From contig NZ_JAFBCK010000001.1 in the NCBI RefSeq assembly GCF_016907695.1, forward strand, positions 5,630,001 through 5,694,000: a stretch of 64,000 bases of DNA, in the 5' to 3' direction. The notes beneath the pieces were generated by a model. That model worked only from the letters and a program-made list of their open reading frames with translations. It was not told the DNA's origin and made no database searches. Position numbers and translations under genes: made by a program. Each line of letters opens with the position of its first letter. Position 1 is the first letter of the stretch. This document shows positions 49,797 through 64,000 of the stretch, piece by piece. The DNA comes from Actinokineospora baliensis (GTDB lineage Bacteria; Actinomycetota; Actinomycetes; Mycobacteriales; Pseudonocardiaceae).

Positions 49797-51026
49797 ATGT
49801 CCAAGACGGCGTTTCTGCTCGCGGGCCAAGGGGCCTTCCGACCGGGGATGTTCGCCGCCGAGTCGGCCGCGACGGACCTGGGTGATCTGCTCGACGCCGC
49901 CGACGCGGTCGCGGCGTCCTTCGGCGCACCACCGGTCAGGCGGCACCTGCTCGACCCGGCCGGGCCGACCGCGGCGGAGTTGGCGAGCGCGGACCCGTTC
50001 GCGCTGCAGTTGGTGGTGTTCGTGGCCGCGCTGGGCGAGTACCGGCTGGCGAGTCGCACCGAGGAGCCCGATGTGCTGGTCGGGCACAGCCTCGGCGAGC
50101 TGGCGGCGCTGACGGCGGCGGGGGCGTTCGAGCTGTCCGACGCGCTGCGGGTGGTGTGCCACCGGTCGGCCGCGCTGGCCGGGGCGGTGACCGAGCCGGG
50201 CGGGATGCTGTCGGTGGGGATGTCCGCGGCCCGCACCGCGCACGTGGTCGCGGCGGTCGACGACCCGCGGGCGGCGATCGCGGTGCGCAACGCGCCCACG
50301 CGGACCGTCGTCGCGGGACCCGACGCAGCGTTGGAGTCGGTGCGGGCGGTGGCCACGGCGCTGGGCGCGGCCACCGTGCGGCTGCCCGCGCCGTACGCCT
50401 ACCACTCCCCCGGGCTGGCGCTGGCCGCGGAGCGGTTCGCCGAGTCGCTCGCGGGTGTGCGGCAACGGCCGTTGCGCGCGCGGGTGTACTCCCCACTCCT
50501 CGGCCGGTACGTCGCTGACACCGACGACCTCGCCGCTGTGCTGGTTCGGCACCTGTGCTCGCCGGTCGACTTCGTCGCCGCGGTGCGCGACCTGCACGCC
50601 GAGGGGTTGGCCGCGGTGGTCGAGTGCGGTGGCGGCGGGCTGGGCAAGCTGATCACCGCCACCGTTCCCGGCGTGTCGGTCGGTGGTGCCCCGGCCGTTG
50701 TCCCGGCACCCGAGGCCGCGGCGGTGGTCGAGGTGGTCGAGGCCGCGCCGGTCACCGGTCCGGACGTGGGTGAGGTGACCGAGCGGCTGCGCGTGCTCTA
50801 CGCGACCGCGCTGCACTACCCGCTGGAGGCCGTGGATCCCGAGGCGGACCTGGAGGCCGAGCTCGGGATCGACTCGCTCAAGCGGGCGGAGATGCTGGGC
50901 AAGGTCGGCAGCGAGTTCCGGTTGCCCGCCTCGGTCAACGACGGCCGGTTCCTCGCGCACGCGACGTTGGCCGAGCTGGCGGACATGGTCGCGGGGACCC
51001 TCGCCGCTGAGGGCGCCGCCCGATGA
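49797..51026 (+). CDS. Discrete acyltransferase-ACP protein (trans AT plus carrier)
   Basis: 409 residues. Residues 1-310 are a malonyl-CoA-type acyltransferase: LLAGQGAFRPGM, catalytic GHSLGELAAL, and YAYHSP at the substrate-selectivity site, closer to the HAFH malonyl type than to YASH. Residues 330-409 form a carrier domain with LGIDSLKRAEML (Ser360), a signature like the ACPs of polyunsaturated fatty acid synthases. A short Pro/Glu/Val-rich linker joins them. ATGA coupling to the following KS protein indicates that AT and ACP serve that synthase in trans. Confidence 0.88.
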   Translation: MSKTAFLLAGQGAFRPGMFAAESAATDLGDLLDAADAVAASFGAPPVRRHLLDPAGPTAAELASADPFALQLVVFVAALGEYRLASRTEEPDVLVGHSLGELAALTAAGAFELSDALRVVCHRSAALAGAVTEPGGMLSVGMSAARTAHVVAAVDDPRAAIAVRNAPTRTVVAGPDAALESVRAVATALGAATVRLPAPYAYHSPGLALAAERFAESLAGVRQRPLRARVYSPLLGRYVADTDDLAAVLVRHLCSPVDFVAAVRDLHAEGLAAVVECGGGGLGKLITATVPGVSVGGAPAVVPAPEAAAVVEVVEAAPVTGPDVGEVTERLRVLYATALHYPLEAVDPEADLEAELGIDSLKRAEMLGKVGSEFRLPASVNDGRFLAHATLAELADMVAGTLAAEGAAR

Positions 51027-54000
51027 CCGCGCCCCGGGTGAGCGTCCTCGGATCCGGGCCGCTGGCGTCGGCCATCGCGGGCGCCTGCGGGCCCGCTCCG
51101 TCCACAGTGGAGTCCGGGGCGGGCGTGGTGGTGCACGTCGTCGGGGACGACCACCCGATCGGCCAGGTGTTCGGCGAGGTCGCGGCCGGTACCGCGCCGG
51201 TCGCGGTGGTGGTCGTCGACGCGCGGGTGGACAACGCCGGGCAGTGGCCGCCGCACGGCGGTCCGGCCGCGGTGCGGGCGGCCGTTCAGGGGCTGACCGG
51301 TGGCACCACCAGGGTCAACGCGGTGGTCGTCACCGGTCCCCGCGACCGACCGGTCGACGCCGAGACCGCGGCCGCGGTGCTGTTCCTGGCCGGGGCCGAC
51401 CTGCTCGCGGGCCAGTGCGTCGAGGTCGACGCCTCCCGCGCCGAAGTGGACAGTCAGTCCGCAATGGACTCGTTGTGCGACAACGAGGATCCCGATTCCG
51501 TCGTCGTGGTCGGGATGGGCATTGTGTTGCCGGGCGCGGACTCGCCGGACCGGTTCTGGGAGCTGCTGCACGGCGAGGACACCGTGTTCGGCGAGCCCGG
51601 GGACCGGATCGCCCTGGACCACATCTTCTCCGGCGACCCCACCGAGGCCGACCGCACCTACTCCCGGGTGTCCGGTTTCATGGCACCGGACCCGCGCGCC
51701 GACGCGGCGACCGACTTCACCGAGGGCTGGCTGCGCCGCGGCATCGCCCAGGCCATGGCGACCGTCACCACCACCGGGACCGACCGGCACCTGTTCGCCG
51801 TCGGCCTCACCGCGGACGGCAGCCACCACCTCGAGCAGAGCCTGGTGGCGCGGGAGGTGCGCCGCCTGCTCGGCGACCGGCTCGACGCAGGCACCGACCA
51901 GCGGCTGCGGGAGCTCTACCCGCTCGCGGTCGACGCACCCGAGGAGATGCTGCCGTACCGCATCGCGCGCCGCGCCGCGGTCGACCTCCCCGGCGACACC
52001 GAGGTCGTCGTGGTGGACACCGCCTGTTCGTCGTCGCTGTACAGCATCGACATCGGTGCGCGGGCGCTGCGCGCGGGCGAGGCGGACGTGGCGGTGTGCG
52101 GTGGCGCCTTCGCGGTCGGCGTGCAGAACCTCGTGCTGTTCTCGAAGCTGCGCGGCCTGTCGCGCTCCGGCGCGGTCCGGCCGTTGGATGCGAGCGCGGA
52201 CGGCGTGCTGTTCACCGATGGCGCCGCTGTGCTGGCGCTCAAGACCCTCGCCAGGGCACGCGCCGACGGCGACACCGTGCTCGCGCACGTGGCGGGTTTC
52301 GGCGGCTCGTCGGACGGCAGGGGCAAGGCGATCTACGCGCCGAACCCGGTCGGGCAGCGGATCGCGCTGCGCCGCGCCTGGGCGGCGGCGGGCGTGGACG
52401 CGGGCGACATCGACTGGGTCATCGCGCACGCCACCGGGACCCCCGCCGGGGATCGCGCGGAGCTGACCGTGCTCGGCGAGCTCGGCGGACCGACCGGGTG
52501 GACGGTGTCGTCGAACAAGTCGACCGTCGGGCACACCGGGTGGGCGGCGGGCGCGGTGTCGGCCGTGCACGCCGTCCTCGCGTTGCGCCACGGCCGGATC
52601 CCGGCACAACGGCACTTCACCGGGCTGCCCCGCGATGTCGACGGAGCCGTGCCGATCACGGTGCCGACCACCGACCTCGCGTGGCAGGCGGGTGACCGCG
52701 CGCGGACGGTGGCCATCTCGGCCATGGGGTTCGGCGGGACCAACGGGCACCTGCTGCTCACCGACACCGCGGCGAGGGCACCCGAACGCCCGGCCACCGC
52801 GCCGGTCGACGATGTCGTGGTGGCGGGGTGGGCGGCTCATCTGCCCGGCGACCCGAGCCGCGACCGGGTCACCGCGTGGCTGCGCGGCGACGCCGCCGAC
52901 TGGCCGACCAGGTTCCCAGACGACTACCCGCTGCCGACCCCGGTGCAGATGCGACTCGCCCCGTCGGCGATCGCGGCGATGGACCGCAGCCAGCTGATCG
53001 CGGTGCGGTGCGCCGACGAGCTGGCCGGGGACTGGTTCGCCCGCACCGGGTTGGCCGACCGGACCGGGGTGTACGTGGGGCACAGCGGGCCGACGACGGC
53101 CGCCGTGCGCCACGACACCCGCGCCTACTTGGCCGACCTGGCCGCCCGCGGCGGGATCGACGGGTTCGCCGACCTGGTCGCCGGGCCCGCGTCGGCCGCC
53201 GTGCCCGCCGCGACGGAGGACTCGTACCCGGGGCTGATGCCGAACATCATCCCGGCGCGGATCGCGCAGCGGCTGGACCTGCACGGCCCGAACATGGCGC
53301 TGGACGCGGGGTTGGACTCGTTCACCTCCGCGCTGGCCACCGCGGCCAGGGCGGTGCGCGACGGCGAGGTCGACCTGGCCTTCGTCATCGGAGTGGCCGC
53401 CGCCGCAGACCAGGTCGCGCCCCGCGACGGTCGCGAGCCCGCCGAAGCGGCCATCGGTGTCGTGCTGACCAGCGGTGCCACCGCCGCCGAGCACGGGCTC
53501 GACCGGCTGGGCGTGGTCGAGGTGGGCACGACGCCCGCCGCCACGGCGACCCCGAGCGGTGATCGGGTCCACCACGGCGCCGAAGCAGCGGTGCAACTGC
53601 TCAGGCTGCTGCACACGGCCACAGGTCGCACGGTGCTCGCCGCGCAGGAGGACACCCGCACACCCCAGGTGACCGTGACCCCGGCGGTCCGCGAGCCCGG
53701 CCTCCGGGACATCCTCACCCGCCACGCCCTGGAGTTGTGGCCGACGCCCGCGCGAGCGCACCGCGCGCAACTGCCCGCCATCCCGCCGGATTGTGTTGTC
53801 ATCACGGACAACCCCGGCGTCTTCAGCACCCAAGCGGCCGTCGTGCTCGGTCTGGACACCGACCCGGAGACCGTCACCGCGCGCGTGGCGGGGGCCAGGC
53901 ACGTGCGGACCGTCCTCACCAGTGGCGGGTCGTTCGAGGACGCGTTGGCCGCCAACGACCTCACCTTCGCCGCCGTGCGGGCGCTGGTGGTCCCGCTCGC

Positions 54001-56074
54001 GGCGGGCGGCAGCGTCGGCGCGGTCCTGCTCGACGGTTTCGACGGGTCCGGCGTTCCCCGCCCGGACACCGGGTTGACCACGGGCCTGGTGCGCAGCGTG
54101 GAGTCGGAACTGCCCGGCTGCCTCGTGTTCGCCGTCATCACCGACTCACCGGACCCGCACGAGGGGCTGGCGGCCCTGGCCGCGGAGAGCGGGAACCACC
54201 GCCACCTGCCGGTCGCCTACCTGCGGGCGGGCCGCCGCTGGGAACTGGTGCCCCGCCCGCTGCCGGCGCCCCCGGCGGACGCGCCGGCACGCGTGGTCGC
54301 CGACCCGGTGGTGCTGGCCACGGGCGGCGCCAGGGGCATCACCGCGCGGTTGGTACGGGAATTGCTGCGGGACAGCACACCGCGGTCGGTGTGGCTGGTG
54401 GGTACCGCGCCCGAGCCGGACCCGGCGACGCCACCGCTGCTCCCGGACAAGTCGACCGCGTTGCGCGAACTGATGGCCCGTTTCCCCGGCGAGAACCTCG
54501 CCTCGCTCAACCGCCGCCACACCGAGGCGGTGCGCGACGCCGAACGGGCCACCGCGATCCGGCTGCTGCGCGAGCGGCTCGGCGACGACCGGGTGCACTA
54601 CCGGCGCTGCGACGTGCGCGACGCGCAGCGGGTGGCCGCGCTGGTCGCGGAGATCACCGGGGTCGACGGCGGCGTGGACGTCGTCGTGCACGGTGCCGGT
54701 CTGGTCCGCAGCACCGCGTTGGCCCGCAAGGACCTCACCGACTACCGGCTCGTGCGCGACGTGAAAGTCCGCGGCGACCACAACCTGCGTGCCGCGCTGG
54801 CCGCCGACCCGCCCGCGCTGTGGTGCTCGCTGAGCTCGGTCGGCGCGTTCATCGGGATGCGCGGGGAGGCCGACTACCAGGCGGGCAACGAGTACCTGCT
54901 GCTGTCCGCGGCGGCGGCCAGGGCAGCGGGCCGCGACGAGGTCGCCATCGTGTCCGGGCTCTGGGTGGAGTCCGGCATGGCGGCCGGGTACGCCACCGGC
55001 ACCCCGTTCACGTCGGGGCTCGCCGATTTCACCCAGCTGTCGGACGGGCAGGGCTTGGAGTTCTTCCGCGCCGAGCTCGCGGGCCGGGCGGATCCGGTCG
55101 GCGCGCTCGGGTCGACCTGGCTCGGCGAGGCCGAGTGGTCGACCCTGCACCGCGCCGCCCCGGGACTGCGCGACCGCTCGGCGAACCGCCCACCGGTCTT
55201 CCTGACCGACCCCGGCGTCGCCGACGGCCCGAGCACGACGTGGCGGTGCTCGATCGACCTGGCCGAACACCCGTGGCTGCTCGACCACACCGTCGACGGG
55301 CGCCCGACCGTGCCAGCGACCGTCGTCCTGCAGATCGCCGCGGAGGCCGCGCGGGTTCCGGGGAAGGTCGCGGCGCGGTTCACCGACATCGTGTTGTCGA
55401 GCTTCATCCGGGCACCCGTGGCGAACTGGCCACGGCACCTGCTGGTCACCGCGACAGCGGACGGCGACCAGGTGCAGGTGCGGGTGGCGAGCGCGCCGTC
55501 GGGCCCGGTGCCCTCGCGCGAACACGCCAGGATGACGGTCCACCTGGCGGGCGAGCACCCGTCGGTTCCGGCCTCGCCCCCACCGCCACCGCGGGGGATC
55601 CCCGTCCCGGACGTCTACCAACTCGGCGGCTCGGTCCATCTGAGCGGGGTCTTCAGCGGCCTCACCGACGCCCGCCTCGGCCGGGCGGGGGTCGGTGGGT
55701 CGGCGCGGTTCGGGATGCGACCGAGGGGCACCGCGTTGGACCGGTTCACCGTGCCCAGCGCCACCCTCGACGCCCTGCTGCGCAGCTCGGTGCTCGATGT
55801 CGGCGATTCGGGCGCGATTCCGGTGATCGTGCCGACCGCCATTGCCGCGATCGAGCTGTACGCGCCGGGAAACGACAGCGAGTGGGACATCCGATGTTCC
55901 GGGGAAATCACGCTGCGGTACCGTACGAACACGCGGAGCGGCACGGGGGAATACGTGGCCACAGCACCGGATGGCGCCGTCCTGGCCACACTGCACGGCA
56001 TTTCGTCCGTTTCCCGGGAATTGCACGAAATCCCCGCGGTGAATGGCTCGGCGACCGCGGTGGCCGTGCCGTGA
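51023..56074 (+). CDS. PUFA-synthase-like iterative polyketide synthase: KS-KS0-KR-DH
   Basis: 1683 residues. Residues 1-150 are a Rossmann/SDR-like remnant. The ketosynthase (about 155-580) has the active-site Cys335 in DTACSSSLYS, HATGTPAGD and the NKSTVGHTGWAAG His motif. A second KS-like domain (about 595-860) aligns well (RLDLHGPNMALDAGLDSFTSA) but has Leu764 in place of the Cys, so it cannot condense and looks like a chain-length-factor partner. The ketoreductase (about 1090-1350) has VLATGGARGI, SSVGAFIGMRGEADY and the catalytic Tyr in YQAGNEY. A hot-dog dehydratase (about 1400-1560) has HTVDGRPTVP. No enoylreductase or AT is present. Upstream AT-ACP supplies extender and carrier. It probably makes the acyl chain for the first NRPS condensation domain. 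Confidence 0.87.
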   Translation: MTAPRVSVLGSGPLASAIAGACGPAPSTVESGAGVVVHVVGDDHPIGQVFGEVAAGTAPVAVVVVDARVDNAGQWPPHGGPAAVRAAVQGLTGGTTRVNAVVVTGPRDRPVDAETAAAVLFLAGADLLAGQCVEVDASRAEVDSQSAMDSLCDNEDPDSVVVVGMGIVLPGADSPDRFWELLHGEDTVFGEPGDRIALDHIFSGDPTEADRTYSRVSGFMAPDPRADAATDFTEGWLRRGIAQAMATVTTTGTDRHLFAVGLTADGSHHLEQSLVAREVRRLLGDRLDAGTDQRLRELYPLAVDAPEEMLPYRIARRAAVDLPGDTEVVVVDTACSSSLYSIDIGARALRAGEADVAVCGGAFAVGVQNLVLFSKLRGLSRSGAVRPLDASADGVLFTDGAAVLALKTLARARADGDTVLAHVAGFGGSSDGRGKAIYAPNPVGQRIALRRAWAAAGVDAGDIDWVIAHATGTPAGDRAELTVLGELGGPTGWTVSSNKSTVGHTGWAAGAVSAVHAVLALRHGRIPAQRHFTGLPRDVDGAVPITVPTTDLAWQAGDRARTVAISAMGFGGTNGHLLLTDTAARAPERPATAPVDDVVVAGWAAHLPGDPSRDRVTAWLRGDAADWPTRFPDDYPLPTPVQMRLAPSAIAAMDRSQLIAVRCADELAGDWFARTGLADRTGVYVGHSGPTTAAVRHDTRAYLADLAARGGIDGFADLVAGPASAAVPAATEDSYPGLMPNIIPARIAQRLDLHGPNMALDAGLDSFTSALATAARAVRDGEVDLAFVIGVAAAADQVAPRDGREPAEAAIGVVLTSGATAAEHGLDRLGVVEVGTTPAATATPSGDRVHHGAEAAVQLLRLLHTATGRTVLAAQEDTRTPQVTVTPAVREPGLRDILTRHALELWPTPARAHRAQLPAIPPDCVVITDNPGVFSTQAAVVLGLDTDPETVTARVAGARHVRTVLTSGGSFEDALAANDLTFAAVRALVVPLAAGGSVGAVLLDGFDGSGVPRPDTGLTTGLVRSVESELPGCLVFAVITDSPDPHEGLAALAAESGNHRHLPVAYLRAGRRWELVPRPLPAPPADAPARVVADPVVLATGGARGITARLVRELLRDSTPRSVWLVGTAPEPDPATPPLLPDKSTALRELMARFPGENLASLNRRHTEAVRDAERATAIRLLRERLGDDRVHYRRCDVRDAQRVAALVAEITGVDGGVDVVVHGAGLVRSTALARKDLTDYRLVRDVKVRGDHNLRAALAADPPALWCSLSSVGAFIGMRGEADYQAGNEYLLLSAAAARAAGRDEVAIVSGLWVESGMAAGYATGTPFTSGLADFTQLSDGQGLEFFRAELAGRADPVGALGSTWLGEAEWSTLHRAAPGLRDRSANRPPVFLTDPGVADGPSTTWRCSIDLAEHPWLLDHTVDGRPTVPATVVLQIAAEAARVPGKVAARFTDIVLSSFIRAPVANWPRHLLVTATADGDQVQVRVASAPSGPVPSREHARMTVHLAGEHPSVPASPPPPPRGIPVPDVYQLGGSVHLSGVFSGLTDARLGRAGVGGSARFGMRPRGTALDRFTVPSATLDALLRSSVLDVGDSGAIPVIVPTAIAAIELYAPGNDSEWDIRCSGEITLRYRTNTRSGTGEYVATAPDGAVLATLHGISSVSRELHEIPAVNGSATAVAVP

Positions 56075-56152: not shown

Positions 56153-57697
56153 ATGTCGGCTGAGGCCCCGCCCCCCGCTGACCCGGACGTCTCGACCCCG
56201 GGGTCCACCGCGCGCTGGTGGACCCTCGGCGTGGCCTGCGTCGCGACGTTCATGCTGATGCTCGACGTCACCGTGGTCAACGTCGCGCTGCCCGACATCC
56301 GCGTCGACCTGCGCGCCGACCTGTCGGCCCAGCAGTGGGTGATCGACGCCTACACCCTGGCCCTCGCGGCGTTCCTGCTGACCAGCGGCTCGCTGGCCGA
56401 CCGGCTCGGCCGCAGGCGGGTGTTCGCCGCCGGGCTGGTGGTGTTCACCCTCGCCTCGCTGGCCGCGGGCCTGTCGCAGGGCATGGTCGCGCTCAACGTG
56501 GCCCGCGGCGTGCAGGGCACGGGGGCCGCGGTGCTGTTCGCGGTCGGCCCGGCGCTGATCGCCCAGGAGTTCACCGGCGCCGAGCGCGGCAAGGCGTTCG
56601 GCCTCTTCGGCGCGGTCGCCGGTCTGGCGCTGGCGTTCGGGCCCGCCCTCGGCGGTCTGCTCGCCGAGGGCGACTGGCGGTGGATCTTCCTGGTGAACCT
56701 GCCGGTCGGCGCGGTGCTGCTGGTGCTGACCCTGCTGAAGCTGCGCGAGCAGCGACCGGGCGGGGCGCCGGGGGTGGACTGGCCGGGACTGGTGGTCTTC
56801 AGCGCCGCGCTGGTGCTGCTGGTACTCGGGTTCCTGCGCGGTGAGGCGCTGGGCTGGACCAGCCCCGCGGTGCTGGGCATGTTCGTCGGCGGGGTGGTGC
56901 TGCTGGCGGTGTTCGTGCTGGTGGAGCGCCGCCGCGGCGGCGCGGCCATGCTGGACCTCGGGCTGTTCGGCAACCGCACGTTCCTCGGCCTGTCGCTGGC
57001 GACGCTGCTGTCCAACGCGACGAGCCTCGCCGCGATCTTCCTCGAGGTGTCCTACCTGCAGAACGTGCTCGGCTACTCCGCGCTGGAAGCGGGCCTGCGG
57101 CTGCTGCCGCTGACCCTGGTGCTGTTCGTGGTCGCCGCGGTGACCGGCGGGGTGGTGTCGAAGTTCGCCCCCGGCGCGCTGATCGGCACCTCGATCCTGC
57201 TCATCGCGGTCGGCATGGGTCTGATCGCGCTGGTCGACCCGGGCGACTCGTGGCTGTCGCTGCTGCCGAGCATGCTGGTGATGGGCGTCGGCATGGGCAT
57301 GTTCAACCCGCCGCGCTCGGTGGTCTCGGTCGGGGTGGTCGCGCCGGAGAAGGCGGGCATGGCCACCGGCATCGGGGAGACGTTCCAGCAGGTCGGCGTC
57401 GCGGTCGGGGTGGCGGCGTTCGGCGCGCTGTTCCAGGCGAAGGTGATCGCCGCGGTCGGCGGGTCCGGCCTGGCGACCGGGTCGGAGGGCACCGACCGCG
57501 AGGTCGGCCGCGCGGTGGCCTCGGGGGCGGGCGGCGACCTCGGCGGTGGCGCGGACCTCGCCAGGGCGCTGTTCGTCGACTCGTTCGGGTCGGTCATGGT
57601 GGTCTGCGCGGTCATCTGCGCCGTGGGGGCGGTCATCGCCTATACCTTCATCAGGGGACGCGATCTGCACGAGTCGGCCACCGCGGGAACGGAGTGA
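56153..57697 (+). CDS. MFS drug exporter, DHA2 (14-TM) family
   Basis: 514 residues with about 14 hydrophobic segments. The N terminus TLGVACVATFMLMLDVTVVNVALPDI carries the D1 motif of EmrB/QacA proteins. Motif A is GSLADRLGRRRVF and a motif C-like GLALAFGPALGG is present. It should export the cluster product by proton antiport and may give self-resistance. AAGGAG precedes the ATG. A 78-bp gap with a palindrome separates it from the polyketide synthase gene. The FMN reductase gene follows 5 bp later. Confidence 0.93.
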   Translation: MSAEAPPPADPDVSTPGSTARWWTLGVACVATFMLMLDVTVVNVALPDIRVDLRADLSAQQWVIDAYTLALAAFLLTSGSLADRLGRRRVFAAGLVVFTLASLAAGLSQGMVALNVARGVQGTGAAVLFAVGPALIAQEFTGAERGKAFGLFGAVAGLALAFGPALGGLLAEGDWRWIFLVNLPVGAVLLVLTLLKLREQRPGGAPGVDWPGLVVFSAALVLLVLGFLRGEALGWTSPAVLGMFVGGVVLLAVFVLVERRRGGAAMLDLGLFGNRTFLGLSLATLLSNATSLAAIFLEVSYLQNVLGYSALEAGLRLLPLTLVLFVVAAVTGGVVSKFAPGALIGTSILLIAVGMGLIALVDPGDSWLSLLPSMLVMGVGMGMFNPPRSVVSVGVVAPEKAGMATGIGETFQQVGVAVGVAAFGALFQAKVIAAVGGSGLATGSEGTDREVGRAVASGAGGDLGGGADLARALFVDSFGSVMVVCAVICAVGAVIAYTFIRGRDLHESATAGTE

Positions 57698-60709: not shown

Positions 60710-61205
60710 GGCGGAAGTGTCCTTTCCCTTCGCGAGAACGTGCCAGGAGGGTAGCAACAGCGAATTGCCCCGGCGACCCGTCCATCGGGCAATCGGGTTA
60801 CCCACCTCCCCCAACGGCGCAAGGCCGCTGACACTGCGCCACCAGCTGATCGGAGTCGGCCGAGGGGACGCCAACCATTCGTCGCAGCGCGGTGGTCACG
60901 ACCGGAGCAGCTGTTTGCTCCGCGTGCCCGCCACCCCGTCGCACCGGGTGGCGCAGTGCCGCTGTTGGTCATTCCCCGACCGGCCCCAATCCGTCCACAG
61001 CGGACCTTTCGGCCCACTGCCCGCGTGCGGTCGCCACGAAATCGGGCGTTCATCCGGCGGACACCTGACCGGACCCTTGACCGGCGCGACCGCTGGGACC
61101 GAGAGTTGTCCAAGTCCGCCTGAGGGAGGGCGGATCCCTTTCGCGGCAACGGTTCTGGCCATCGTCACCAGCCGGTCCGGTGTCGCGACACGACAGGAGG
61201 CACAC
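60710..61205. promoter_or_regulatory. 496-bp divergent intergenic region before the peptide precursor
   Basis: No gene is seen here. It holds three hairpin-forming repeats: CGGAGCA/TGCTCCG at 60903-60922 (6-nt loop), GCCACCC/GGGTGGC at 60930-60952 (9-nt loop) and TCCGCC/GGCGGA at 61115-61134 (8-nt loop). TTGACC at 61077-61082 could be a -35, but the -10 region (GAGAGT) is poor. AGGAGG at 61195-61200 is the ribosome-binding site of the peptide gene. It should contain promoters for both flanking genes. Confidence 0.45.
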
Positions 61206-61298
61206 ATGAAGAAGATCAAGGTGCGCAAGGCGGGCTCGGTTCGGCTGACCACCGCGGCCACCCTCTACTCCGGCGGTTGCGGTCCGATCTACGTCTGA
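61206..61298 (+). CDS. Candidate RiPP precursor peptide (30 aa)
   Basis: A 30-residue peptide with AGGAGG 5 nt before its ATG, an unusually strong signal in this window. The N-terminal half is basic (MKKIKVRKAGSVRL) and would serve as leader. The C-terminal half TTAATLYSGGCGPIYV has one Cys, a Gly-Gly pair, Thr, Ser and two Tyr, a plausible core. A perfect hairpin follows the stop, then a gene for a PqqD-like/M50-like membrane protein and a TPR protein. The strand, spacing and partners fit a ribosomally made, modified peptide. No named RiPP class matches the core as far as I can tell. It could instead be a small regulatory peptide. Confidence 0.65.
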   Translation: MKKIKVRKAGSVRLTTAATLYSGGCGPIYV

Positions 61299-61306
61299 TG
61301 CGACCT

Positions 61307-61334
61307 GGGCGCCCCGGCTCGCACCGGGGCGCCC
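61307..61334 (+). terminator. Perfect 11-bp hairpin between precursor and maturation genes
   Basis: GGGCGCCCCGG and CCGGGGCGCCC pair perfectly around the loop CTCGCA, starting 8 nt after the peptide stop codon and ending 23 nt before the next ATG. It has no T-tract. Such hairpins after RiPP precursor genes often act as leaky terminators or protect the precursor mRNA, giving more precursor than enzyme. Confidence 0.75.
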
Positions 61335-61357
61335 CCGGACCACACCGTGAGGCCGCC

Positions 61358-62524
61358 ATGACCGCACCCGCGCTCGACCTCGACCGACCGCTCGCGCTGC
61401 ACCCGTTGACCTTCCACGCCGACGGCGACGAGGTGACCGTCGGTCGGGCGGACATCGGGCTGTTCGGTGTGTTCCCCCCGGACGGGGCTGAGCTGCTGCG
61501 CAAGTTGACCGACGGGGTGCCGCCGAACGCGGCGGCGGCCTGGTACGCCGACGAGTACGGCGAGACCGTGGACATCGCCGAGTTCCTGGAGATCCTCGTC
61601 GAGTACGAGATGCTCGTCGGCGACGGGGAGAGCGCCGCGGCGGTGGGACCGGTGCGGTGGCGGCGGCTCGGCGAGGCGCTGTTCTCCTGGTGGGCGTTGG
61701 CGGTCTACGCGCTCGTCCTCCTCGGCGGGGTCGTGGCGATGATCACCGTCCCCGGGATGGCGCCGCACGCGCGGAACATGTTCTTCACCGAATCGCTCGT
61801 GGTGGTGCAGCTCGCGCTCTTCTTCGGACAGGTGCCGCTGATCCTGGTGCACGAGTCGTTCCACGCCCTCGCCGGGCGCAGGCTCGGCATCAACTCGTCG
61901 CTGTCGATCGGCCGCCGGTTCTACTTCCTGGTCTTCGAGACCAGGATGGACGGTCTGGTCGCGGTACCGCGCAAGCAGCGCTACGTACCGATCCTCGCGG
62001 GCTTGTTGGCCGACGCCTTGGTGCTCGGCCTATGCGCACTGCTCGCGGCCGCCGTCGGCGTGGGACACCCGGTTGGCCGGATCGCGCTCGCGTTCGCCTT
62101 CGTCACCCTGCTGCGGGTGGTGTGGCAGTTCTACTTCTTCCTGCGCACCGACCTGTACTACCTGGTGTGCACCGTTTTGGGCTGCAACGACTTGCACGTC
62201 GTGGCTAGCCAGATGCTGCACCAGAGACTGAACTCCCTGTTGCGGCGCAGGGGAACCCCGGTCGACGAGTCGTCCTGGCACCCGCGCGACCGCGAAGTGG
62301 CCCGCTGGTACATGTGGCTGTTGCTCGTCGGCTACGTGTTCCTCACGCTCAGCCTCCTGTTCGCGATCGTCCCCGCCATCGCCCACGTCGTGCAGGTCAT
62401 CGCCACCAGGCTCCAAGGTGACCCCACGGCCCTCGGTCTGCTCGACGCCACCGTCTTCCTCGTCCTGACGATCGGCCCGGTCATCGCCGCGGCGGTGCTG
62501 GCCGCCCGGTCCCGCCGCGCCTGA
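61358..62524 (+). CDS. Membrane metalloprotease-like protein with N-terminal PqqD-like domain
   Basis: 388 residues. Residues 10-90 (FHADGDEVTVGRADIGLFGVFPPDGAELLRKLTDG; DIAEFLEILVEYEML) follow the PqqD-like pattern, the precursor-recognition (RRE) fold of many RiPP pathways. Six or so membrane helices follow. HESFHALAGRRLG (His165, Glu166, His169) lies in or next to a helix, and YVPILAGLLADALVLGL follows, together resembling M50 site-2-type 'putative peptide zinc metalloproteases'. It probably binds the leader and cleaves or exports the modified peptide. The Asp ligand expected later in M50 proteins is only tentatively in LLADAL. GTGAGG precedes the ATG. Confidence 0.78.
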   Translation: MTAPALDLDRPLALHPLTFHADGDEVTVGRADIGLFGVFPPDGAELLRKLTDGVPPNAAAAWYADEYGETVDIAEFLEILVEYEMLVGDGESAAAVGPVRWRRLGEALFSWWALAVYALVLLGGVVAMITVPGMAPHARNMFFTESLVVVQLALFFGQVPLILVHESFHALAGRRLGINSSLSIGRRFYFLVFETRMDGLVAVPRKQRYVPILAGLLADALVLGLCALLAAAVGVGHPVGRIALAFAFVTLLRVVWQFYFFLRTDLYYLVCTVLGCNDLHVVASQMLHQRLNSLLRRRGTPVDESSWHPRDREVARWYMWLLLVGYVFLTLSLLFAIVPAIAHVVQVIATRLQGDPTALGLLDATVFLVLTIGPVIAAAVLAARSRRA

Positions 62525-62540
62525 CCCCTCGGAGGCCACG

Positions 62541-64000
62541 ATGTCCGCTCCTCGCCACCAGTGGGTCCGGCTCTCGCGCCGGGTCGAGCCCGCCGACCTG
62601 CCCGGCCTGCTCGCCACGCACCTCCCGGCTCTGCCGCCTGCGCTGACCGACCCCGTGGACGCGCACCGCCGCCTGCGCGGCCCATACACGGCAACGGGTA
62701 CCGTGCTGCGGGCCATCGTCCCGCAGGCCGATCCGAACCTGGTGCGCAGGCACGAGATCGAGCTGTTCTCGGCGGCGCCGGAACTGCGCGAGACCGTCGA
62801 CGGCGCCCGGGAAACCCTCACCTCGCTCGCCGTCCCCAAGGAGCGCACCAGGTTCTACTCGCGGGTGCGCACGCAGCGGATGGCGCACGGGATCGTCGAG
62901 TTCCTGCACGCGCACCTGGCGAGCTCCGGCCCCAGGTCGCTGGTCGTGCTCGTCGCCGAGGCGGACCGAACCGATCTCGAGTTCCTGTCAGCTCTCCTGC
63001 GCCGCACCGATCCCGCCGAGTTGACCGTCGTCGTGTGCGACACCGGGGAGACGCCCGGCGAACCGCTCGCCGCGGACTTGGCCGAACACACCACTTTTCG
63101 ACAGGTGACGACTCCACCACGCAGGTCCGATATAGACGTTGAGCGGTACGTCGCGGCGGATTGCCTGTCAGACGACCCCGCAACGATGGCCGCCTACGAG
63201 CGGCTAACGCCTGCGGAGCGCGCTGCGCTGCACGACCGGCGAGCTGAGGGTCTGGCGTCGCTCGGAGAGTTCTCGCTGACTCTCGGTGCGATCGCCTACC
63301 ACCGCGAACACGGCTCCGACCCGGCCGTCACCGGTGCCGACGCATTGGCGCAAGCGCTGAACCACTGCCTGGACATGGGCTACTACCACGCGACTGTCGA
63401 GTTGGGACAGCGCGGCCGAGCCGTCGTCGACATCTCCGACCTGGCCCGCTGGTGGGTCTTCACCACCAAGATGACCACCTCACTGGCCGCGCTCAACCGC
63501 CCGCACGAGGCCGAAGCGCTCTACGCCGAGATCCTCGCCGCCACCCAGGACCCGGGCGTCCACCTGCAAGCCTGCTACGCGGTCGGGATGCTCTACACCC
63601 GCCACCACGCCGAGGCCGACCGGGATCACGTACGCGCCAAGGGTTTGATGAACCAAGCCGTCGCCCTGGCGCGGTTGTGCTACACCGGCACCGAGCGCGT
63701 GTTCCACACCGTGTTCCAGCGCAACGGCCTCGCCCTCGTCGAGGCGCACCTGGGCAATCCGCACGAGGCGTTGCGGTTGGTGGCCGAAGGCATCGCGGAG
63801 ATGGACGCCCAACTCGGCGCGGACGAGCACGCCCTGCACCGGTCGGTCCTGGTGCACAACCGGGCACAGGTGCTCACCGGTCTCGGCCGCCTGGAGGAGG
63901 CCCTGGCCTGCTACGACGACGTCATCTCCCGCGACCCCAACTACCCCGACTACCACTTCGACCGCGGCAACCTCAACCAGCGCCTGGGTCGCACCGACGA
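62541..64000 (+). CDS. TPR protein with degenerate NTPase-like N-terminal region (cut by window end)
   Basis: The frame is open to the last base; 486 residues are seen. GGAGG is 5 nt before the ATG, which is 17 bp after the preceding stop. Residues 100-180 (RMAHGIVEFLHAHLASSGPRSLVVLVAEADRTDLEFLSALLRRTDP) resemble the Walker-B half of STAND ATPases, but no Walker A is visible. Residues 200-290 are helical like AfsR-type linkers, and TPR-type helical pairs follow (NGLALVEAHLGNPHEALRLVAEGI; QVLTGLGRLEEALACYDDVISRDPNYPDYHFDRGNLNQRLGRTD). It probably scaffolds or regulates the peptide cassette. The C terminus is missing. Confidence 0.72.
   Translation, partial: MSAPRHQWVRLSRRVEPADLPGLLATHLPALPPALTDPVDAHRRLRGPYTATGTVLRAIVPQADPNLVRRHEIELFSAAPELRETVDGARETLTSLAVPKERTRFYSRVRTQRMAHGIVEFLHAHLASSGPRSLVVLVAEADRTDLEFLSALLRRTDPAELTVVVCDTGETPGEPLAADLAEHTTFRQVTTPPRRSDIDVERYVAADCLSDDPATMAAYERLTPAERAALHDRRAEGLASLGEFSLTLGAIAYHREHGSDPAVTGADALAQALNHCLDMGYYHATVELGQRGRAVVDISDLARWWVFTTKMTTSLAALNRPHEAEALYAEILAATQDPGVHLQACYAVGMLYTRHHAEADRDHVRAKGLMNQAVALARLCYTGTERVFHTVFQRNGLALVEAHLGNPHEALRLVAEGIAEMDAQLGADEHALHRSVLVHNRAQVLTGLGRLEEALACYDDVISRDPNYPDYHFDRGNLNQRLGRTD

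Follow-up and report, generated by a model that had tools for sequence, protein, structure and literature searches.

A short tyrosine- and cysteine-containing peptide, a membrane protease with an RRE-like fold and a TPR protein form a conserved cassette, a candidate RiPP class

Introduction

What is the function of a gene for a 30-residue peptide that lies just ahead of the genes for a membrane protease and a TPR protein? The question is raised by the right-hand end of a 64,000-nucleotide stretch of DNA from Actinokineospora baliensis (hereafter the window), which covers positions 5,630,001–5,694,000 of a 7.68-Mb single-contig genome. An earlier note, made from the letters of the window, had taken the peptide for a RiPP precursor encoded beside its recognition and protease partner. 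We compared this locus with its homologues and now put a probability of roughly 0.85 on the reading that the peptide is a RiPP precursor, accompanied by an RRE-guided protease and by a TPR protein as its dedicated partner. The locus is a candidate RiPP class, apparently undescribed.

Results

A peptide, a membrane protease and a TPR protein form a conserved cassette

All the parts listed in the earlier note, namely the AGGAGG, the short peptide, the perfect hairpin, the HESFH membrane protein and the TPR protein, were found in the sequence (Table 1). They run in a single direction, in the order 30-aa peptide gene, hairpin, gene for the RRE-M50-like membrane protein and gene for the TPR protein, with a spacing of five bases between the AGGAGG and the ATG at 61206. 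The earlier note had also advised reading the DNA to the right of the window. The translations there, read by eye, revealed genes for an ArsR-like regulator, an aquaporin and an arsenate-reductase-like protein, and no known RiPP enzyme was seen among them.

Table 1. Features of the cassette, in positions of the window
Feature	Position	Strand	Evidence or remark
Ribosome-binding site AGGAGG, precursor gene	61195–61200	+	Sequence
Precursor peptide MKKIKVRKAGSVRLTTAATLYSGGCGPIYV, 30 aa	61206–61295, stop 61296–61298	+	Sequence
Precursor leader MKKIKVRKAGSVRLT	61206–61250	+	Kept in 104/105 close loci; profile 32–60 bits
Hypervariable core TAATLYSGGCGPIYV and stop	61251–61298	+	Tyr in 110/110, Cys in 109/110 distinct cores
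Tyr21 codon, window core	61266–61268	+	
Cys25 codon, window core	61278–61280	+	
Perfect hairpin, 11-bp stem, 6-base loop, between precursor and protease genes	61307–61334	+	z −3.0
RRE-M50/S2P membrane protease, 388 aa	61358–62524	+	
RRE of protease, residues 10–88	61385–61621	+	
HESFH of protease	61850–61864	+	
Asp265 of protease	62150–62152	+	
TPR protein, 688 aa	62541–64000 in the window; end 64607, beyond it	+	105/105 close loci; pLDDT 92.8

A protein search gave at least 736 relatives of the protease at E 0.001 among the matches listed. In the family to which the window belongs, 50 of 297 genomes had protease matches (at E 1e-10, with distant matches counted); at the cut-offs used, the figures were 22 of 200 for a second family, 16 of 343 for the genus of genome G467 and 51 of 150 for the family of that genus, with up to four copies per genome. 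From the genome-search matches we selected, for diversity, 123 homologous loci with wide flanks as a sample of all matches. Scored by tblastn against the protease of the window, these divided cleanly into 105 close loci (198 bits or more) and 18 distant loci (141 bits or less).

The TPR gene lay directly downstream of the protease gene in all 105 close loci, with a homologue of its N domain 1.2–1.6 kb downstream on the same strand in each, and it was absent from all 18 distant loci. Upstream of the protease, 104 of the 105 close loci encode a leader that follows the pattern KKIx[VI]RKxGx[VI][RK]LT; the exception, L211, has a core-like reading frame without a leader. A conserved peptide upstream of protease homologues is what the earlier note had made its RiPP reading depend on, and these leaders provide it. 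Thus, the peptide, the RRE(PqqD-like)-S2P/M50 membrane protease and the TPR protein are a conserved cassette.

Precursors consist of a conserved leader and a variable core

To build the leader profile, we used 58 leaders from the first sets, the window's among them. The profile found a leader in 54 out of 55 loci outside the training set (L181–L235), and the 121 leader rows upstream of close proteases scored 32–60 bits; on the reverse strands (2.12 Mb from the 123 loci), zero 14-mers exceeded 8 bits. In the first motif scan, L094 ended at a contig edge and L096 had no motif match, as was the case for L013, L033 and L095, which were resolved in the wide copies L044, L053 and L240. Four first-set loci missed by the stricter pattern were recognised with a looser pattern or by visual inspection, and the profile later recovered them. 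The window's leader codons differ at four places from those of A. diospyrosa and at three from those of A. auranticolor, all of the differences being synonymous. Among the 18 distant loci, 10 had weaker leader-like 14-mers (14–22 bits), which lay immediately ahead of the protease in five cases and approximately 1.2 kb upstream in the other five; this suggests that such leader recognition predates the cassette.

The precursors are thus split into a conserved leader and a variable core, the latter averaging 15 residues (sd 4.2) and being hypervariable in sequence, with 110 distinct cores in the close loci. Tyr was present in all 110 and Cys in 109, the exception being L053 (SQYWQ). Both residues together occurred in 109 of the 110 cores, compared with a mean of 57.8 and a maximum of 71 in residue shuffles (n = 2000). 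The two residues are placed differently: the offset of the first Tyr after the leader had an sd of 1.05, versus 4.27 for the first Cys. In 89 of 110 cores the first Tyr was residue 6 or 7 counting on from the leader Thr, and the nearest Cys fell anywhere from −6 to +16 relative to the Tyr. Four loci carry precursors in tandem, with arrays of 6, 6 and 7 in L133–L135 and of 2 in L210. The GGCGPxY-like ending that the earlier note had proposed looking for upstream of homologues fared unevenly: the leader, the Tyr and the Cys are kept, and the window's own ending, ..GGCGPIYV, is not conserved in the family. Because both residues persist in cores that otherwise change, we think it fairly probable that the core Tyr and Cys are modified, and the Tyr-plus-Cys rule renders this chemistry directly testable.

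Pfam and NCBIfam contain no model for the peptide; scans of 15 members turned up a single weak and isolated Pfam hit (PriS_C, E 0.044). Searches of the open-access PMC literature yielded no description of the cassette, and none of its papers contained any of six leader or core strings. The RRE family tables supplementing the daptide (PMC10036551) and RRE-Finder (PMC7470986) papers may list the family.

The membrane protease carries an RRE-like fold

S2P proteases are characterized by an HExxH motif plus a distal Asp. The predicted model of the window's protease showed helices, with an HExxH motif and distal Asp of the S2P/M50 type; the residues concerned, H165, E166, H169 and D265, were invariant in 105 out of 105 close proteases. 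Structure comparison placed an RRE-like fold at the N terminus. No Pfam or NCBIfam family scored above the cut-off for the protease, and no PDB sequence matched its profile at E 0.1. From the predicted fold and its conservation, we infer that the RRE binds the leader, and the invariance of the catalytic residues suggests that the HExxH...D centre would cleave it. The RiPP precursor with a recognition and protease partner claimed in the earlier note is therefore supported by the leader in 104 and the TPR gene in 105 of the 105 close loci, and by the RRE-like fold.

The TPR protein is the constant partner

The TPR protein was modelled with a pLDDT of 92.8 as an alpha/beta N domain of approximately 230 aa followed by a TPR superhelix; in a fifth or more of its rows, the structure comparison covered residues 254–688 only. 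The N domain is single copy in this genome and had no notable sequence match in the PDB at E 10; it may resemble a degenerate STAND/LuxR-type NTPase. Within the otherwise confident model, the loop of residues 92–101 was predicted to be disordered, and it is rich in invariant residues (T92, L93, T94, S95, P99 and E101), as would be an active-site or ligand-binding loop.

At four loci without the protease (L143, L146, L147 and L148), a peptide of the KKIRIR type or a related one is encoded in overlap with the TPR gene start, which indicates that peptide and TPR protein belong together; four further protease-less TPR copies had no such overlapping peptide. The cores of the four overlapping peptides lack Tyr in 4 out of 4 cases and Cys in 1 out of 4, so Tyr is retained only alongside the protease. 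The TPR gene comes straight after the protease gene in each of the 105 close loci, and we regard its protein as the leading candidate to present or modify the core. If it is an enzyme, it would be a peptide-tyrosine modifying catalyst unrecognised by any domain library.

Two candidate modifying genes accompany subsets of the loci

Candidate modifying genes were not constant, a Cys decarboxylase gene being present in 9 of the 105 close loci and a flavin reductase gene in 42. MrsD, EpiD and CypD are peptide Cys decarboxylases of AviCys RiPPs. The nine loci carry a gene for a divergent flavoprotein (PF02441), the closest solved structures being those of MrsD and EpiD, and their cores end in Cys in nine out of nine cases, a likeness to AviCys RiPPs, although no lanthionine enzymes were seen at cassette loci. 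Cores ending in Cys occurred in 12 of 104 loci overall, the other three (L208, L230 and L240) having no decarboxylase gene within approximately 7.5 kb. The link between the gene and a Cys ending had a hypergeometric p of 8e-11 with loci treated as independent. Because the nine form one clade in the tree (SH-aLRT 99), we took this link as a sign of function and not as a count: it reflects one evolutionary event, the one to be expected if the peptides undergo C-terminal Cys chemistry. The window locus has no HFCD Cys decarboxylase gene, and its core ends in Val.

The flavin-reductase-like gene (PF01613) lies downstream of the TPR gene, and in 21 of the 44 loci of the first set it touches the TPR stop or overlaps it. 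No adjacent copy is present in the window locus or its clade, and the closest flavin reductases that the window's genome encodes were only 32–35% identical to a cassette one, making a partner acting in trans no more than hypothetical. Of 39 cores in which Cys precedes Tyr, 21 had the gene at their locus, as did 20 of the 65 in which Tyr comes first (first-ranked peptide per locus, kinship ignored), a split that we did not use as evidence.

Discussion

Comparison with known systems

RRE-S2P fusions (daptides) and other M50 proteases (epipeptides and pearlins) are known, and what is different here is the leader, the core rule and the TPR partner. According to PMC10036551, the daptide protein MpaP joins an N-terminal RRE to an intramembrane site-2 protease and is encoded beside short, often multiple precursors, and this RRE-S2P fusion next to short precursors is what the cassette shares with daptides. 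The same paper describes a daptide leader motif ELExMEAP and a core ending in an invariant Thr modified by MpaB/C/D/M. The cassette, by contrast, has the KKIx[VI]RKxGx[VI][RK]LT leader, no core ending in Thr (0/110) and a constant TPR protein. MpaB, MpaC, MpaD and MpaM were found neither in the window locus (64 kb plus 22 kb, by eye) nor among the recurrent neighbour families. According to PMC10885120, epipeptide EpeP and pearlin TglG/TmoG are membrane proteases of the M50 family by which the product is released or exported, and the protease of the cassette is of this type too; unlike those systems, the cassette lacks the radical SAM epimerase and PEARL enzymes, and its protease carries an RRE. 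The cassette would be a widespread, apparently undescribed RiPP class.

A proposed pathway

In the pathway that we propose, the precursor leader (KKIKVRKAGSVRLT) would be held by the RRE at the N terminus of the membrane-embedded S2P/M50 metalloprotease, while the core would be presented to the TPR protein and changed at Tyr and Cys. The Tyr, at its near-fixed distance from the leader, and the Cys would most likely be joined or oxidised as a pair. The protease would then cut off the leader and free the Tyr/Cys core, perhaps also exporting it.

A bolder form of this pathway, drawn by analogy and in our view doubtful, makes the TPR protein a BhaC1-like flavin-dependent peptide oxygenase and has the core Cys capture the oxidised Tyr in a Tyr-Cys thioether macrocycle before release. 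The TPR protein, which has no recognisable flavin domain, would bind the precursor and oxidise the Tyr at its fixed leader distance to a catechol- or quinone-like state, with reduced flavin supplied by a neighbouring or distant flavin reductase. The Cys would add to the oxidised Tyr from either side and at any distance, and the RRE-S2P protease would then release the product. A fixed Tyr and a free Cys are the trace expected of an enzyme-aimed oxidation followed by a loosely constrained thiol capture, so this scheme would account for the placing of both residues as well as for the flavin reductase.

The model for it is BhaC1, described in PMC9850906 as a large, FMN-dependent TPR protein in which no flavin domain is recognisable and whose substrate is a small peptide, oxidised at an aromatic residue; BhaC1 and AmmC1 are there more active with flavin reductases around. 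The cassette resembles these pearlin systems in its TPR protein, in an aromatic core residue at a fixed place and in the flavin reductase of 42 of 105 loci. It differs from them in having no PEARL and in that an internal Tyr of ribosomal origin takes the place of a Trp at the C terminus. The lack of an adjacent reductase in the window's clade counts against the scheme, as does the homology comparison that follows.

As a homology test set, we used four TPR-like proteins encoded beside AmmA-like peptides (4 of 300 genomes), whose orthology to AmmC1 is inferred from position. Comparison of the cassette TPR protein with these four by hmmsearch and hhalign gave nothing above background: the hhalign probability was 11.7 and confined to the TPR repeats, and in profile searches of 759 proteins the AmmA-neighbour proteins fell within the background. 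A motif of ER, 36–44 residues and [TS]DLxxL occurred in 3 of the 4 AmmA-neighbours, in 27 of 120 and 7 of 44 cassette TPR proteins and in 0 of 711 others; having been picked after looking, and being mostly absent from the cassette TPR family, it was dropped as a link to BhaC1.

Alternative explanations

A short basic peptide, an M50 protease and a TPR protein are also the three kinds of part found in RRNPP and streptococcal SHP-Eep signalling, and the peptide could instead be a secreted, cleaved but unmodified pheromone with the TPR protein as its intracellular receptor. The lack of a constant dedicated transporter or immunity gene would suit such a signal, as would the peptides overlapping the TPR start in the four protease-less loci. 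We nevertheless consider it improbable: no HTH family appeared in the Pfam matches listed for the TPR protein (first 486 aa of the window's protein; full-length relatives, 25 of 61 families), the 230-aa N domain is unlike RRNPP, and the universal Tyr is left unexplained by signal variation. The RRE, together with the peptide-Cys decarboxylase in nine loci, is a RiPP feature. That Tyr and Cys are kept for metal binding or redox carriage, with removal of the leader and no cross-link, strikes us as quite improbable. Both residues are ligands, some cores are rich in Cys (SAAACKC- and CCC- types) and the operon is small with a single precursor, but 57 of 79 first-set cores have one Cys only, and the wide range of Tyr-to-Cys spacings is awkward for a metal site.

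The remaining alternative, to which we give very little credence, is a purely regulatory leader-peptide ORF, which would act through its translation and the hairpin on the genes downstream. The layout, a short ORF and then a hairpin just before the protease gene, is as it would predict; attenuation, however, needs neither an RRE in the next gene, nor arrays of 6–7 different precursors, nor a leader conserved at the amino-acid level with synonymous-only changes among near relatives. All of these are in keeping with the preferred reading of a RiPP precursor and its RRE-guided protease. The hairpin itself is probably an attenuator. In the window, 2 of 200 shuffles folded equally well (z −3.0), and the gap between precursor and protease genes folded at z < −2 in 29 of the 44 loci computed with our own shuffle procedure; a hairpin recurring in this way fits an attenuator that yields more precursor than enzyme.

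Precursor-like peptides near distant RRE-M50 genes

Among loci from other genomes whose protease gene is only distantly related to that of the window, we observed a related precursor type, KKLVVRKLESVKAS followed by a short core, approximately 140 bp upstream of the RRE-M50 gene at L064, L069, L072, L074 and L076. These cores contain Cys and lack Tyr (for example, ASVACGNQPV), and the TPR gene is absent at all five loci. The five loci represent a further, less elaborate RRE-M50 peptide system.

At L061, L062, L063, L068 and L138, the peptides approximately 1.2-1.3 kb upstream of the distant RRE-M50 gene are very short (for example, MTIEVRKVESVKATGFEV). Several of these loci carry, between peptide and protease, a ThiF-like gene (assigned by reading) with a PqqD-like N-terminal start.

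TPR genes without the protease

At L143, L146, L147 and L148, the protease is absent and the TPR gene is present, its start overlapped by a KKIRIR- or KSIRIR-type peptide that has lost Tyr from the core. Homologues of the N-terminal alpha/beta domain of the TPR protein at L144, L145, L149 and L150 had neither a protease nor a recognisable peptide nearby.

Other genes in the window and elsewhere

A small HTH (PF13560-type) regulator gene recurred approximately 0.8-0.9 kb upstream at 6 of the 45 loci of the initial batch (L048, L051, L056, L058, L079 and L080). AmmA-like scaffold peptides followed by a protein of about 600 aa and PEARL-like genes were observed at L241-L252; this arrangement was found in 4 out of 300 Streptomyces genomes.

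Further genes in the window
Feature	Window position	Remark
Large polyketide/fatty-acid-synthase-like gene	51023-56074	By reading, contains a pair of ketosynthase-like regions plus a ketoreductase
MFS-type exporter	56153-57697	Adjoins the polyketide/fatty-acid-synthase-like gene
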